From assembly GCA_030432635.1 (NCBI GenBank), contig JAUIMB010000017.1, positions 1 through 55,669 on the forward strand: a DNA stretch of 55,669 bases, in the 5' to 3' direction. The position numbers and the translations under genes are program-made. This document shows, in pieces, positions 50,756 through 55,669 of the stretch (its first letter is position 1; every line of letters starts with the position of its first letter). The DNA is from Bacteroidia bacterium. Lineage in GTDB: Bacteria; Bacteroidota; Bacteroidia; Flavobacteriales; Flavobacteriaceae. The notes below the pieces were generated by a model. That model was not told the DNA's origin, ran no database searches, and saw only the letters and a list, made by a program, of their open reading frames with translations.

Positions 50756-51640
50756 ATGACCAAGACTCTCATGTTTTTATGCCAACATCAGGAAGAAAAC
50801 CCTGAGGTTGTTAGATTGGTCATCATAATCGCTGCGATATTGTTAGGTGGCTTTTTTGTCTATTTGGGTGTAACGAGAATATTCTATTTTTTTGAAATGG
50901 CTTATGTTGAATATATTAAGAAGTCATTATTTTACAATCATTTATACTTCAAAAAGAGATCCTTGACAATTGCTCAAACTGATGTATTGATTGAGTATAT
51001 CAAGTTTTATAATAGATTGTCACCAAGATATAAATCATATTTTGAGCATAGAGTCCTTCAGATCCTTAATCGAATTGAATTCATAGGTAAGGATATAACT
51101 GTTACTGAAGAAATGAAAACCATTATTGCTGCGACCTTGGTAAAACTAACCTTTGGCTTACGGGATTATAAAATTAAATCTGTTGAACGCGTGATCTTGT
51201 ATCCTGACGAATTTTATTCACAAACCAATAAAACACTTCACAAAGGGGAGTTCAATTTAGGTTATAAAGCGTTGGTGTTGTCTTGGAAAGATGTCCTACA
51301 TGGTTATGCCATTGCCGATGATAATTTAAATTTGGCTGTACATGAATTTACGCATGCCATTCATTTTTATTATATGCAAGTGAGACGTTACAGTACAAGT
51401 GCAGCTATTTTTTTGAATTCTTATGTCGAACTCATAAACAAATTGGATGCTGATGACGCGTTAAAAACTAAACTCATAAGGTCTAAATTTTTACGGGATT
51501 ATGCTTATACCAATCAATATGAGTTTTTGTCTGTACTGATTGAAACCTTTATCGAATCGCCAATGGAGTTCAAGGAATATTTTCCTGGTATTTATGGAAA
51601 GATTAAAAGTATGCTCGGATTTAATTTCGAAGGGTATTAA
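50756..51640 (+). CDS. Membrane-anchored MtfA-like zinc peptidase
   Basis: 294 residues. One N-terminal transmembrane helix (about 19-40) precedes a soluble zinc-peptidase domain with HEFTH at 196-200 (HExxH; two metal-ligand His and the catalytic Glu). The domain phrases LTIAQTDVLIEYIKFYNRLSPRYKSYFEHRV and ILYPDEFYSQ and the spacing fit the MtfA (DUF980) family. E. coli MtfA is soluble and regulates the glucose transporter repressor Mlc; the membrane anchor here implies a different partner. Monocistronic. Confidence 0.82.
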   Translation: MTKTLMFLCQHQEENPEVVRLVIIIAAILLGGFFVYLGVTRIFYFFEMAYVEYIKKSLFYNHLYFKKRSLTIAQTDVLIEYIKFYNRLSPRYKSYFEHRVLQILNRIEFIGKDITVTEEMKTIIAATLVKLTFGLRDYKIKSVERVILYPDEFYSQTNKTLHKGEFNLGYKALVLSWKDVLHGYAIADDNLNLAVHEFTHAIHFYYMQVRRYSTSAAIFLNSYVELINKLDADDALKTKLIRSKFLRDYAYTNQYEFLSVLIETFIESPMEFKEYFPGIYGKIKSMLGFNFEGY

Positions 51641-51716
51641 AAGACTTAACTACTTCCTTTCATTGTGATCAAGACCTATCCTGTCATGTTTTAACCGGTT
51701 TTCAGATTTTATATAA

Positions 51717-51750
51717 ATAAAAATTCCCTAAAACAACTGTTATAGGGAAT
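51717..51750 (-). terminator. Terminator of the minus-strand outer-membrane protein gene
   Basis: An 8-bp stem (51723-51730 with 51743-51750) and 12-base loop. Read on the minus strand it ends in a T-rich run, 25 bases after the stop of the gene at 51776. Confidence 0.7.
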
Positions 51751-51775
51751 GTCTATTCAATGTTATATGTAAGTC

Positions 51776-52351
51776 TTACAGTTTAAATATGAGTTGAAAG
51801 GTATATTGGAAGTGATTGTTGTCGTAAACTTTATCACTTGCGTCAAATGCAAACTTGGCAATACCTTGTAATCTAACACCAAATTTAGGTTTGATCCATA
51901 GTGTTCCACCAAGTAAGGCATTACCCGAACCATTAACTTCTTCTACAATAAATAATCCAAGACCTGTACCCACGAACATGTCAATCCAATCAGCATTTTT
52001 GAAAAGTGATTCTGAAAAATAATATTTCAAATAGGTATTGGTAGAATAGTAGTTGAATGTTTCTCTAAGTTGGCCATTATCTATTTCGCTATCGAATTGG
52101 TTCATGGTAAAATCCTGTTCAATATAGAAATATTTATTCCAACGACCTTCAACACCTATGGCAAACGGACGGTTGAATTCAAACTCATCTATTCGAGAGA
52201 AAGGCTGTCTTTCCCCTAAACTACCCACAGCATTGACACCTATGCTTAGTTTCCAAACATCATCATTGACTCTATCAGCAAACTTTGATTGAGAAGAAGC
52301 GTCAAATCCGATTAACGAAACAAGCACCAAAAATAAAATTAGTTTTCTCAT
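51776..52351 (-). CDS. Putative outer-membrane beta-barrel protein
   Basis: A 191-residue protein with a signal peptide (MRKLILFLVLVSLIGFDASSQ). Alternating amphipathic strands such as FAIGVEGRWNKYFYIEQDFTMNQF, TNTYLKYYFS and DMFVGTGLGLFIVEEV end with FQYTFQLIFKL, whose terminal aromatic-rich strand is typical of an 8-strand OmpA/OmpX-like barrel. It lies 84 bases downstream of the nucleotidyltransferase gene with its own terminator; membership in that operon is uncertain. Confidence 0.72.
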   Translation of the reverse strand: MRKLILFLVLVSLIGFDASSQSKFADRVNDDVWKLSIGVNAVGSLGERQPFSRIDEFEFNRPFAIGVEGRWNKYFYIEQDFTMNQFDSEIDNGQLRETFNYYSTNTYLKYYFSESLFKNADWIDMFVGTGLGLFIVEEVNGSGNALLGGTLWIKPKFGVRLQGIAKFAFDASDKVYDNNHFQYTFQLIFKL

Positions 52352-52435
52352 TGTATGAAATTCTTAGATTCAAATATAGGCTTTAAGCACTGATATACAA
52401 AGAAACAGTAAACATATCACATTTAAAAACTTATG

Positions 52436-53506
52436 TTAAGATTTTTTAAGCTTTCTGAATCCTAATATTCTCTTGTAGTCCTTAAAAAGATCTTTTCTAT
52501 AGTTTTTATTCTTGAAAAAGAACAATATTCGACTTGTTATTATGACGTAAATATAAGTACTCTTGCTAATAATTAAATCAATTATCTTCCTTAAAAAGGG
52601 ATATTTCAATTTTAATAGAAAAAGTGTATTTGCAACGCGATTAGACCTGAATGTTTTGAAATCCGTAAACCAAATCTTAGCAATTGAAAAGTAATTTTTA
52701 AAGTAAGGACGGTCAATGATGGGTTTCAAATTAAAAGTGTACGCATTGTTTAGAATGAGAACATCATAAATAGACTTAAAGCTAATTTTACTGTATTTAT
52801 AACCTAAGTCATTGGCTTGAAAATTTAAAATGGTATGATAGAGAAGATGGTCGTTTGCAGGTACACTTATGTTTTGTGCAAGTTGTTTGTCGTTTAATAG
52901 GTCTTCTGTTGCCAACAAACCATTAAAAGATTGTATAGTAACTTTTCGATGGACTTCGACAGCGGCCAAAAATTTATCGGATTGTAGTCTTGGTAAATGT
53001 TTGTAATCAAAGTATTTGGACGTTATGCCCCTTTCAGTTCCTTTGTAACCATTGTCTGTTAAGAGCGTATAGGCAAGATCGAGCTGATCTGGATCCACCA
53101 AGACATCAATGTCACCTAACATACGTTCTCCTGGATCATTGTAAAGGTTTTTAAGTAGGAATGCACTTCCTTTCAAAAACACATGGTTGATTTGATTGGT
53201 TTTTAATAGTACTGAAATATTAGTGATTTCAGATAGCAGCGTTTTATTTCTATTTCTATTAATGACAGTGATTTCTTCAAGATAAAGAACTAAATCTTCA
53301 GGAAGGTAATGCGTCAATTCCTTATCCTTTAATCTGCAATAGCAAGTTGTAAGTACCAAAAAATCACTAGCGACGACTACAAATTGTTCCCAGTCAATAG
53401 TTTGGGATTCTAATGTTTGTACTAATTGTTCAATAGGGTTTTTAAAACTCAGTATATCTGCAATGAGTACTAAGGTCTCTTTATATTTGTGTTGTATTGA
53501 AGGCAA
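52436..53506 (-). CDS. Nucleotidyltransferase-family protein (PF14907 type) of the peptide-modification operon
   Basis: 356 residues. VFLKGSAFLLKNLYNDPGERMLGDIDVLVD (about 109-138) contains the KGxA...DiDxLV pattern of the NTP_transf_5 family: Lys112-Gly113, then Asp132 and Asp134 as likely metal ligands of a polymerase-beta-like nucleotidyltransferase. It is cytoplasmic. The reading frame opens at TTG 53506, because an in-frame stop lies just upstream and no Met occurs before the motif. It starts 35 bases after the kinase gene. Such proteins accompany HPr-kinase-like and PqqD-like proteins in other peptide-modification or uncharacterised clusters; the reaction here is unknown. Confidence 0.85.
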   Translation of the reverse strand: MPSIQHKYKETLVLIADILSFKNPIEQLVQTLESQTIDWEQFVVVASDFLVLTTCYCRLKDKELTHYLPEDLVLYLEEITVINRNRNKTLLSEITNISVLLKTNQINHVFLKGSAFLLKNLYNDPGERMLGDIDVLVDPDQLDLAYTLLTDNGYKGTERGITSKYFDYKHLPRLQSDKFLAAVEVHRKVTIQSFNGLLATEDLLNDKQLAQNISVPANDHLLYHTILNFQANDLGYKYSKISFKSIYDVLILNNAYTFNLKPIIDRPYFKNYFSIAKIWFTDFKTFRSNRVANTLFLLKLKYPFLRKIIDLIISKSTYIYVIITSRILFFFKNKNYRKDLFKDYKRILGFRKLKKS

Positions 53507-53541
53507 AAGATAAAATTAGGAGCTTAAAAGTACTAAATCTT

Positions 53542-54711
53542 TTATGAATCTTTGAAAAGGCTCTCAAACTTGGAAATCGCAAAGTCATTGTCAGAATACC
53601 TTAGTTCAAAGCTGTTGATATCCTTTAACCAATTCATAAACTTTAAGGCATGTTTTTCCTTAGGTGATACCCAAGAATCGGGAATTAAAGTCTGAAGTAT
53701 TTTATCTGGCGAAACAGGTTTGAAGCTACTCTTTGCATTTGCATCAAACTTAACATATACTATGTTTTTGCATGGAAAACTTGATTGTAGATCATCATAA
53801 CTCAAAATGGGTGGCACATATTTGATATTCACTTTTTTAGGTCCACTAGTATGGGTCTTAAGTTTATCGATGTTCTCAACATATTGTTTTAAGGCATCAA
53901 AGGCTCCTTTTTTTATGGACGTAGCTGCAGGATAGCGGTGTAATTCCATATTGTCTTCGTAGAGCGGTGTGAAATCATCACATAGAATATCAAATCCGTG
54001 GGCCATAAGTAATACAGACAGCGTGCTTTTACCATTTCCTGAATCTCCTATGATCATGACAGCTTCTTTACCATTGGAAATTGTTGAAGCGTGGAAGGTT
54101 GCTATCCAGTTATCTATTTTTGTGCTGTGTATGCTATTTGTGAGTTCTAGAGCGAATCGACCTTGAAGAAAATGGAACGATTCTGTTTTATAGCTCCCAA
54201 CGATATTACCATTTTTCGCAAGGTATAAATCGTTATTGGATTTAAAAACATCAAATAAAACATCACATTCATTGGAAGGAGTAATGTTGTGATGCACTAT
54301 TTGAGGATGAATCAAACTTTTTATAAGTTCTGATTCGTAATTTATATTTATTGTCTTTCCATAAAAGGCATACGAATTTCTAATATTGCCATCAGGAATG
54401 TTTGGGGTGTCTGCAATTGCTTGAGTGTCATCGTCACTACTGATATTTAAATTGCCTACAAAGAGTTCTATGTCATTACATATTGCATTGGCATCATTAT
54501 TTGACATGCCCATGTTTTCGTATAAATAATGAACAAATGAATCCCGACTTTCATCGGGATTCATATATAGTGTAATTAAATCACTTTGTATTTTTGACGT
54601 GATTACATAATTATTAGATTTTTCAAACCATAAAATTACGTTATCCTCATCTATATTTTGAACTAACTTAGGAATAACCTTCGTATTCAAAACGTTCAAT
54701 GATTTAGTCAA
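53542..54711 (-). CDS. PqqD-like domain fused to HPr-kinase-like ATPase
   Basis: 389 residues. The N-terminal 90 residues (VIPKLVQNIDEDNVILWFEKSNNYVITSK...) have the length and pattern of a PqqD/RRE domain, which binds leader peptides of ribosomal peptide products. The C-terminal part is an HprK-type kinase domain: TFHAST (His207), Walker A GDSGNGKST (222-230) and the acidic motif ILCDDFTPL (Asp245, Asp246). HprK-like kinases phosphorylate serine in HPr and, in some lasso peptide clusters, in the precursor. TTG 54711 starts inside the end of the small peptide gene (8-base overlap), so translation is coupled. Separate genes in proteobacterial HprK-related systems; here fused. Confidence 0.85.
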   Translation of the reverse strand: MTKSLNVLNTKVIPKLVQNIDEDNVILWFEKSNNYVITSKIQSDLITLYMNPDESRDSFVHYLYENMGMSNNDANAICNDIELFVGNLNISSDDDTQAIADTPNIPDGNIRNSYAFYGKTININYESELIKSLIHPQIVHHNITPSNECDVLFDVFKSNNDLYLAKNGNIVGSYKTESFHFLQGRFALELTNSIHSTKIDNWIATFHASTISNGKEAVMIIGDSGNGKSTLSVLLMAHGFDILCDDFTPLYEDNMELHRYPAATSIKKGAFDALKQYVENIDKLKTHTSGPKKVNIKYVPPILSYDDLQSSFPCKNIVYVKFDANAKSSFKPVSPDKILQTLIPDSWVSPKEKHALKFMNWLKDINSFELRYSDNDFAISKFESLFKDS

Positions 54712-54868
54712 AAGGGTTTCCTCCTGGATCTGGAGGAGACGACGCCTGCGCCTTCTTAGGGTTTAAAATAATGAAAGTTCCTATGGCCGTTAAGGCAGCA
54801 TATTTCCCCATTTTTTTAATGGCTTCCTTTCGAGTGATTTGATCTTGTGGATTATTTATGTTTTTCAT
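54704..54868 (-). CDS. 54-residue precursor-like peptide with Tat-like leader
   Basis: A short gene, 54 residues, that starts with ATG 54868 and ends TAA 54704. The N-terminal part is polar and basic (MKNINNPQDQITRKEAIKKM), followed by a hydrophobic segment (GKYAALTAIGTFIILNP, 21-37), KKAQA (residues 38-42) and a short tail SSPPDPGGNPFD (43-54). This resembles a twin-arginine-like or Sec-like leader (TRKEAIKKMG) with a Ser/Pro/Gly/Asp-rich core. Its own promoter precedes it and the PqqD-HprK gene overlaps it, so it is the likely substrate. It could also be a small secreted protein; no Cys is present. Confidence 0.72.
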   Translation of the reverse strand: MKNINNPQDQITRKEAIKKMGKYAALTAIGTFIILNPKKAQASSPPDPGGNPFD

Positions 54869-54887
54869 TTTCTAAAAATATAAAGGT

Positions 54888-54915
54888 CAAAAATAATAAA
54901 ATTTAATTAATGCAA
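54888..54915 (-). promoter_or_regulatory. Promoter of the peptide/kinase/nucleotidyltransferase operon
   Basis: On the minus strand a -33 TTG (54915-54913) and -7 TATTTTTG (54895-54888) are 17 bases apart, with the peptide ATG 19 bases further on after an A-rich leader. It fits the Bacteroidota consensus well. Confidence 0.6.
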
Positions 54916-54942
54916 TAATTATTTGAACTATTTTTTTAAAAA

Positions 54943-55669
54943 TTATTCAATTATCACTTTTTTGGTAATCTCTTGACCGTCACTGTTAACAGTAGCAAGG
55001 TAAATACCAGCATTGATGTTTGTCACGTCAATACGGTTCTGTAACAGAGCACTGTCAAGTTCTATGGTCATTACCATTCTTCCTTGTATATCGAAGAGGT
55101 TTAGCGTCGCGTTGTCAGCTACTTCTCCGTTTACCACTAGTTCATTGGAATCGTTCAAAGAATAGATATCCAACTTACCAAGTTCGCTATCGACAGAAGA
55201 AAGCGCATCTTCCTCATATCTCAAGAAGAAACGTCCAGTTCCTGAAAGGTCAGACGAAGGCGTGATAGTGTAATCAGCTTCGTTGAGCAAGGTTGTGGTG
55301 TTCTTCACGGTATCGTCAAGGTACACTTTAACATTTTCAGGTAAAGTTGATTGATGGATACTGAAAGTGATCTGCTCACCTTGGCTAGCATTGACACCCA
55401 ATGGGATTGTCACGTTAGTCAGGTCAGTGTCTTTAAGCGCTTGCAGCGCAAGATCTTCACCAGCATCACCTTGGACCAATCTGGAATAGATAGAGAACGC
55501 AGGCGCTGTTTCACCCCAAATAGCAGCATCATATCCTAGGTCAAACCCTTCACTTGCATCTGCATTGAAATAGAAATCAGTAGCGTACACATTAGAGTTG
55601 CTTGTTAAGCTAAGCGTTAAATATGTCAATGGCGCGTTACGTCCTACGATGAAATCATCGCTTGTTCCT
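54943..55669 (-). CDS. 3' part of a secreted protein with T9SS type A sorting domain
   Basis: Only the last 242 codons are visible; the gene continues past the right edge. The visible part begins GTSDDFIVGRNAPLTYLTL and includes beta-rich Thr/Asp/Ser sequence. The final 75 or so residues (LDIYSLNDSNELVVNG...NLFDIQGRMVMTIEL...NINAGIYLATVNSDGQEITKKVIIE) are a classic type IX secretion C-terminal sorting domain, so the protein is exported through the outer membrane and the tail removed or used for surface anchoring. The function of the N-terminal part cannot be told. Confidence 0.88.
   Translation of the reverse strand, partial: GTSDDFIVGRNAPLTYLTLSLTSNSNVYATDFYFNADASEGFDLGYDAAIWGETAPAFSIYSRLVQGDAGEDLALQALKDTDLTNVTIPLGVNASQGEQITFSIHQSTLPENVKVYLDDTVKNTTTLLNEADYTITPSSDLSGTGRFFLRYEEDALSSVDSELGKLDIYSLNDSNELVVNGEVADNATLNLFDIQGRMVMTIELDSALLQNRIDVTNINAGIYLATVNSDGQEITKKVIIE

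Follow-up and report, generated by a model that had tools for sequence, protein, structure and literature searches.

RiPP-type tailoring enzymes are usually studied as producers of antibiotics or signals.

The closest known system to the one analyzed here is the LPP (linear polyphosphorylated peptides) family of Bacillota (Popov et al. 2026, Nat Commun, PMC13381572), of which the present system is a new variant. As described in the sections of that paper used here, both have a linear precursor with a conserved N-terminus and a variable C-terminus, an HprK-like kinase, an RRE and an NTP transferase, and a cyclase is absent. Our NTP transferase belongs to PF14907, a likeness at the family level, LppN itself being outside the comparison. 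In the same sections, LppK modified Ser at its site, not Thr or Tyr. The phosphorylated Ser of LPP lies near the start of the core (S3 in LppA); Ser44 of our peptide is likewise placed, and its phosphorylation is predicted. The LPP leader is removed by a signal-peptidase-type enzyme, and signal peptidase cleavage, at an AxA site, is also the probable fate of our leader. There are also clear differences. In LPP systems the RRE is a separate protein, the peptidase (SipW-like) and the transporter (MsbA-like) are dedicated ones and the leader contains YxxP, whereas in Flavobacteriaceae the RRE is fused to the kinase, neither peptidase nor transporter is found among the window neighbours scanned, and the leaders resemble signal peptides, with YxxP in none of 82. 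Linkage to T9SS cargo genes is a feature of the present system which sets it apart from LPP, whose biological role is called unknown by its authors in the sections used.

Phosphorylated lasso peptides, such as paeninodin (PadeK, ThcoK) and pseudomycoidin (PsmK, PsmN), are also related. According to the parts of PMC9266682 on which we draw, their HprK-like kinases act on the precursor and are characterised by a His-Lys-Asp-Asp motif, a set also present in our kinase, and in pseudomycoidin a nucleotidyltransferase homologue is required for the hexose on phosphoserine. They differ from our system in that macrolactam synthetase and B2 peptidase are not seen here, and the predicted acceptor Ser is not C-terminal. 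Concerning T9SS, the passages cited for Porphyromonas gingivalis describe anchoring via a linking sugar, 2-N-seryl, 3-N-acetylglucuronamide (PMC13086638, PMC7468200). This small serine-bearing linker ties T9SS cargo to the surface and may serve as a model for a modified peptide, but it is a sugar of A-LPS, whereas the candidate small partner found here is ribosomally encoded and its attachment to cargo is hypothetical.

Among the open-access papers found, as judged by title and start of abstract, none describes a T9SS-linked modified peptide. The original prediction had spoken of a possible minimal, undescribed system, which is incomplete: it overlooks both the similar LPP family (May 2026) and the link with genes for T9SS cargo.

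Gene set and enzymes

The window is the whole stretch of DNA analyzed, 55,669 nt from a member of the Flavobacteriaceae. The source organism is a marine bacterium. As had been proposed, the genes for peptide, kinase and nucleotidyltransferase form one operon, and every feature given below is on the minus strand. The 54 aa precursor peptide, supported by the ORF call and by homologues, occupies 54704..54868, with its stop codon at 54704-54706. The RRE-HprK fusion kinase (53542..54711, ORF call and alignment) has 389 aa when counted from the first TTG of its frame, and the 8 nt overlap with the peptide that had been claimed depends on this TTG. The start conserved in homologues is the TTG of 'LKxxLAPK', equivalent to the TTG at 54690, 13 nt past the peptide stop. 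The nucleotidyltransferase (356 aa, 52436..53506) is indeed of the PF14907 type (109 bits, E 3.8e-31); residues K112, G113, D132, D134 and E184 are invariant in 27 of 27 sequences. In 45 of the 49 stretches that carry a kinase the two genes are adjacent, including some which are distant from peptides.

An optional fourth gene downstream of the nucleotidyltransferase (51776..52351) codes for a 191 aa protein which by eye looks like an outer-membrane barrel. It has no Pfam or NCBIfam match, and homologues are found in 31 of the 49 kinase-bearing stretches (tblastn E<=1e-4). Directly upstream of the peptide lies the 3' end of a gene for a T9SS type A sorting-domain protein (54943..55668, Pfam/NCBIfam), cut by the contig end, which seems to run on into contig C5 of the same genome. 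Neither of these two flanking genes figures in the original description. The array on C5 adjoins genes which by eye resemble RmlA and a flippase. Six window proteins (50756-55668) were scanned with Pfam and NCBIfam: neither a cyclase nor a dedicated transporter was found among them, as had been noted before, nor a macrolactam synthetase (asparagine-synthetase-like), a SipW-like signal peptidase, an MsbA-like exporter or a stand-alone RRE.

The kinase core, of the HprK/PEPCK type, covers residues 201-389 (53545..54111). Alignment places the Walker A motif GDSGNGKST at residues 222-230 (54022..54048) and the catalytic Asp-Asp at 245-246 (53974..53979), just where they had been located from the sequence. 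Residues G222, S224, G225 and G227-T230 do not vary among the 23 aligned homologues, nor does the HKDD set formed by His207, Lys228 and both Asp. TIGR04352 (HprK-related kinase A, NCBIfam) matches residues 205-385 only, with 58.1 bits (E 7.2e-16), far short of the curated 200-bit threshold. The whole-kinase model has the HprK fold in a fold comparison, which only reached residues 97-389, so the N-terminus was folded alone.

This N-terminus had been described as PqqD-like. Pfam and NCBIfam do not detect such a domain in the window protein: PF05402 and TIGR03859 give no match, and each library matches only one of 23 homologues (E 0.049 and 0.15, respectively). A comparison with four proteins of other Bacteroidota judged PqqD-like by eye gave a weak profile match. 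Since the search with sequence models gave almost nothing, we turned to the predicted structure, which points to an RRE. The model has three strands followed by three helices, and residues about 9-90 (54442..54687) are predicted to fold like lasso-peptide RREs, which are the best structural matches (6jx3, 5v1u, 5v1v); PqqD (3g2b) is also matched.

The precursor peptide

The leader (residues 1-42, 54743..54868) has the conserved sequence ITRKEAxKKMGKYAALTAxGTFxILNPKKAQA, a hydrophobic segment at 24-35 and an AxA site at 40-42. It resembles a signal peptide, and this would account for the absence of an exporter and a protease. The label 'Tat-like' given to it is doubtful, the twin arginine is missing: Arg-Arg is found at positions 13-14 in none of 82 copies, Arg-Lys in 76. 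Neither YxxP nor WxxP appears before position 43 in any of the 82. An AxA-type site (A/S/T/G/V/L/I at 40, A/G/S at 42), where cleavage would take place, is present in 73 of the 79 full copies.

The tail (residues 43-54, SSPPDPGGNPFD, 54707..54742) is the predicted mature peptide, and it is almost invariant within the genus. Its second residue, and thus the second past the AxA site, is Ser44 (codon 54737..54739), the predicted phospho-acceptor. Ser43, Ser44 or nearby residues had been suggested as targets of the enzymes. Conservation favours Ser44, retained by 78 of the 79 full copies and never replaced by Thr; the sole exception is a Tyr, from a genome without a detectable kinase. Position 43 is variable, with Ser in 39 of the 79 and Q, A, T, G, E, R, V or N in the rest. 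Action of the enzymes on Ser44 would be in keeping with this pattern.

The peptide has no Pfam or NCBIfam match. In the loci fetched from the genus, its frame lies unbroken upstream of the kinase. For 28 genus copies, the leader has a pooled pN of 0.09 against a pS of 0.71. These sequences were picked for ending in SPPDPGGNPF[DE], which biases the tail value (pN 0.017), so it was set aside and the leader figure was used instead.

Distribution and association with T9SS genes

Peptide and kinase are found together. Among 299 Flavobacteriaceae genomes, 28 have both, 1 has the kinase alone, 4 have the peptide alone and 266 have neither (32 with peptide and 29 with kinase in total). Among 116 relatives, counting the genome of the window itself, the same 27 carry both; a 28th kinase genome listed among them is an 18-bit P-loop match and was left out. 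Co-occurrence holds even when kinase and peptides are far apart or on separate contigs (G576, G599, G202, G420). We have detected 82 peptide homologues, in 74 of the 79 stretches scanned, and the gene set is present in more than 20 genera. The peptide frame is thus conserved and the kinase N-terminus has a predicted RRE-like structure, two points on which the original prediction depended. In the phylum, 31 of 395 genomes match the kinase model, 5 of them over the whole protein, all Flavobacteriaceae. The other 26 match part of the kinase core only, from model position 195 onward. Three loci with such partial matches (L233, L234, L237) appear by eye to be of the lasso type, with PqqD-, asparagine-synthetase- and nucleotidyltransferase-like genes.

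The gene upstream of each peptide is taken as the longest frame with 120 codons or more whose end lies within 1500 nt upstream, a rule which favours long genes. The T9SS sorting domain TIGR04183 is found in 66 of 74 C-termini of these upstream genes (E<=0.01), and the window's own partner reaches 43.3 bits (cut-off 23); the whole genome has 103 TIGR04183 places. Fewer than 100 nt separate peptide and upstream gene in 52 of the 76 peptides which have one. Extra peptide copies remote from the single kinase are still mostly placed behind T9SS genes.

The sorting domains of the partners are a subclass, with far lower scores to the partner-CTD profile in two congeners without the kinase. This profile contains 27 sequences, one of which (L190) is Lcl-like and not a sorting domain, the same split being obtained without it. 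The 65-bit line for counting partner-type domains was set after the scores were known, and the 40 non-array sorting domains used for comparison were hand-picked from the 103 genomic places, not taken at random. The partner-type domain in the window's upstream gene (54946..55215) has 109.7 bits to the profile, and 108.8 bits in another scoring. Of 10 partners checked, 8 have a Pfam sorting domain, while L057 and L174 have no match at all at E<=0.01. A common cargo function was considered for these 10 and rejected, their N-terminal domains being unlike: Calx-beta, fn3, LRR, a weak haemagglutinin repeat, or nothing. The linkage to T9SS genes suggests a helper or anchor for T9SS secretion of a kind not described before, and an anchoring role for the peptide is speculative.

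Proposed function and alternatives

On balance, we consider it probable that this is a linear, RRE-guided phosphopeptide system in the service of a single class of surface proteins secreted by the T9SS. In the cytoplasm, the kinase would bind the conserved leader through its RRE domain and use its HprK core to place one or more phosphates on Ser44. The PF14907 enzyme would next extend the phosphoserine with a further group, either a nucleotide or a hexose. Phosphorylation of Ser44 followed by a nucleotidyltransferase step, by analogy with LPP and pseudomycoidin peptides, appears to be the best reading. Export of the precursor would then rely on Tat or Sec as a housekeeping route. A housekeeping signal peptidase would cleave it at its AxA site, and the envelope would be left with a modified peptide about 12 residues long. 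Produced together with its partner T9SS protein, it may aid the handling or retention of this partner at the surface. All 33 genomes with the peptide that were searched have TatC, a result which excludes nothing as a test of Tat export, and a signal peptidase I is encoded in the window's own genome; together they make the housekeeping route no more than possible.

Here, RiPP-type tailoring enzymes are linked with a pathway by which bacteria secrete and display surface proteins. If the proposed function is true, it provides a testable role for 'kinase + nucleotidyltransferase' phosphopeptides and a handle on the surface retention of flavobacterial T9SS type A proteins. The gene set is small and the predictions are sharp: one serine, one kinase and one sorting-domain subclass.

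The exported peptide, carrying phosphate or phosphate plus sugar, might also be an encoded linker or anchor for the sorting-domain subclass, used by the T9SS sortase and replacing or tipping the glycolipid linker of the Porphyromonas type. The chances of this are slim, but it would explain why partners with unlike N-termini share a sorting domain and an adjoining peptide gene. It would then be the first ribosomally made, enzyme-modified peptide dedicated to a secretion system.

As an alternative, a secreted bioactive RiPP, a bacteriocin or signal acting on other cells and placed beside T9SS genes incidentally, would fit the RRE, the HprK-like kinase and the nucleotidyltransferase, all RiPP tailoring enzymes, as well as the multiple peptide copies in some genomes. 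We consider it unlikely: the tail is near-constant within the genus, the six neighbouring proteins scanned include no exporter, and peptide copies distant from the kinase are also mostly behind T9SS genes. We give only a small probability to an uncleaved small membrane protein, a chaperone or docking factor for the T9SS partner which kinase and nucleotidyltransferase switch on and off. Conservation of the hydrophobic segment, where T27, L35 and P37 are invariant (82 of 82 copies), is indeed above what we would expect of an ordinary signal peptide, but RRE binding accounts for it equally well, and most full copies have the AxA-type site.

The enzymes could instead modify another target, for example a precursor of envelope glycan or the cargo of the T9SS, with the peptide as a mere adaptor recognised by the RRE. 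The part of PsmN in hexose transfer is itself indirect, and the RmlA-like and flippase-like genes beside the C5 array would fit such a target. Near-invariance of Ser44, whose lone exception comes from a genome without a detectable kinase, makes this explanation very improbable. As to a chance ORF beside an ordinary metabolic pair of enzymes, the lack of a Pfam or NCBIfam match would agree with it, while the leader pN and pS, the 82 homologues and the identical sets of peptide and kinase genomes leave it with next to no probability. This last candidate is refuted by the distribution of the peptide frame, which is conserved in 24 of the 236 genera sampled.

An operon centered on a 54-residue peptide

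The operon is found on the minus strand of the window, which is contig C24 of a 3.5 Mb genome. The first gene, of which the contig end leaves only the 3' part (54943-55668), codes for a T9SS type A sorting-domain protein. It is followed by the 54-residue peptide (54704-54868), a fusion of a PqqD-fold RRE and an HprK kinase (53542-54711), a PF14907 nucleotidyltransferase (52436-53506) and a 191-residue protein which, by eye, resembles an outer-membrane barrel (51776-52351). Of 49 kinase-bearing stretches, 31 have a homologue of the latter, which might therefore be an optional fourth gene of the operon. An M90/MtfA-like metallopeptidase gene on the opposite strand (50756-51640, plus) is often kept near the operon in the genus, which we take to be Psychroserpens. 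The kinase query has a single matching place in this genome, and both relatives of the kinase from named genomes belong to Psychroserpens, one to P. algicola. The apparent kinase start is a TTG (54690), common to most homologues in the genus, which possibly keeps kinase levels low compared to the peptide.

Peptide and kinase usually occur together. The kinase query matches 28 of 116 relatives, including G108, with an 18-bit P-loop match. The peptide profile A1 (28 rows) matches 27 of the 116, own genome counted: the same set minus G108. Of 299 family genomes, 32 match the peptide profile and 29 the kinase profile (E<=1e-10), with 28 matching both; such counts are not phylogenetically independent, though the positives span 23-24 of 236 genera. 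Only G502 has a kinase and no peptide, and its kinase lies 24 bases from a contig end. Four genomes have the peptide and no kinase (G586, G717, G725 and G737, completeness 82-92%); a repeated kinase search found none in them. In a sample of 395 genomes of the phylum, the peptide is found in five, all Flavobacteriaceae, the only ones with a full-length kinase match. The peptide is more conserved than the enzymes: identity to the window sequence is 58-89% in the 27 other A1 rows, compared to 24-64% for the kinase and 28-63% for the nucleotidyltransferase. In one relative (L056, G062:C1:3440229-3441360) the kinase matches are split over two frames, and the peptide and nucleotidyltransferase frames are open.

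Serine 44 and the leader

We have found 82 peptide copies, in 74 of 79 scanned stretches, from 52 genomes. Three of them stop short of position 44; the other 79 are full copies. Serine is found at position 44 in 78 of these and threonine in none, while position 43 is variable. The original prediction proposed Ser43/Ser44 or residues close by as the targets of the enzymes: The pair therefore narrows to Ser44. The sole exception is a tyrosine in G725, where no ATG precedes the aligned start of the frame and no kinase was found in the genome; being a single case, it is only suggestive. Ser44 is kept in the copies from G586 and G717, both incomplete genomes with no detected kinase.

In 28 copies from the genus, the leader (residues 1-42) has a pooled pS of 0.71 and a pN of 0.09, and is thus under selection as a protein. 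Positions 13-14 are Arg-Lys in 76 of the 82 copies, Arg-Arg in none. The hydrophobic stretch of the window copy (residues 24-35) has a mean Kyte-Doolittle value of 2.3; in full copies, position 38 or 39 is usually basic (77/79) and positions 40-42 mostly form an AxA-type site (73/79). These features fit export, be it via Tat or Sec, and cleavage by signal peptidase. TatC is present in all 33 peptide-bearing genomes searched, which is not discriminating; the one signal peptidase I gene of the own genome (two pieces of one frame) does not discriminate either.

Association with a class of T9SS sorting domains

The C-termini of 74 distinct genes upstream of peptides were compared with the sorting-domain profile TIGR04183, which matches 66 of them at E<=0.01; the 74 also include Ffh-like (two) and Lcl-type adhesin-like (two) neighbours. 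The own genome has 103 sorting-domain places, an estimated 3% or so of its genes. The gap is under 100 nt for 52 of the 76 peptides with an upstream gene, and most copies with no nearby kinase also sit behind T9SS genes. No shared N-terminal domain was found among ten partner proteins scanned.

The first frame of contig C5 (L075:1) has the same residues as the T9SS gene cut at 55669: Both contigs appear to be adjacent, with one T9SS gene spanning them. Five more T9SS genes and a second peptide gene with an identical tail (residues 43-54) follow on the same strand, so that six T9SS genes and two peptides would form an array on one strand. By eye, adjoining genes on C5 resemble RmlA and a flippase. 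A third peptide copy is found on contig C13 (L076:9671-9829); about 5.5 kb from it (L076:15300-18786) are genes which, by eye, resemble a C39-peptidase ABC exporter and a membrane-fusion protein.

A partner profile made from 27 upstream C-termini of other Psychroserpens genomes, with no row from the own genome, divides 46 own-genome sorting domains in two groups: the six array domains and four others (80-122 bits), and the remaining 36 (at most 48 bits). This split is unchanged after removal of one wrong profile row. Profile A7 reaches a best score of at least 65 bits, a line set after the fact, in 25 of 27 kinase-positive genomes versus 1 of the 89 others among the 116 relatives; 19 of the 27 supplied rows to the profile. 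Six of the eight non-contributors pass (G000, 123 bits; G021, 101; G031, 81; G035, 79; G036, 69; G062, 68) and two are below (G026, G055). Two species of the genus lack the kinase; their best matches have only 61 bits (G012) and an E of 2.9e-13 (G022). The sole kinase-negative genome above the line, G051, has a lone partner-type domain (102.5 bits, L299, G051:C2:151831-152091), with no peptide in the 3.3 kb around it and no kinase or peptide match in the genome.

Comparison with LPP and a probable pathway

According to the available portion of its description, LPP of Bacillota comprises a linear precursor, an HprK-like kinase, an RRE, an NTP transferase, a SipW-like peptidase and an MsbA-like transporter; core Ser3 is phosphorylated, Thr and Tyr are unmodified, deletion of LppN in a heterologous host gave no visible change, and the authors consider the biological role unknown (PMC13381572). 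It looks as if our peptide system functions like an LPP. On the other hand, several features that define LPP are missing: the discrete RRE and the dedicated peptidase and exporter described there are absent from the six window proteins scanned, and the YxxP feature of LPP leaders is absent from the leaders of our 82 copies. Because of these differences we do not file it as an LPP: It is a new form of RRE-plus-kinase phosphopeptide. No T9SS-linked modified peptide was found in the titles and abstract openings of the open-access literature searched.

Taken together, the comparisons above suggest a most likely pathway. The leader would be captured by the RRE of the kinase, which would phosphorylate Ser44 in the cytoplasm. 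The nucleotidyltransferase would then extend the phosphoserine, much like PsmN, which is reported to add hexose to phosphoserine (PMC9266682, available portion). Release of the modified tail would fall to signal peptidase and a general route of export, and the tail would work with the partner T9SS protein. In Porphyromonas, a serine-bearing linking sugar ties T9SS cargo to the surface (PMC13086638, available portion). That the putative phosphoserine peptide, co-encoded with one sorting-domain subclass, is an encoded linker for the sortase seems to us rather improbable.

In two distant Bacteroidota genomes, a frame with an HprK-like P-loop match precedes a protein of 129-132 amino acids (L231:7307-7696, L232:7324-7722) whose leader has a genuine twin arginine (SRRDMLKKSAYAAPAIM...); this gene pair is possibly a parallel system.
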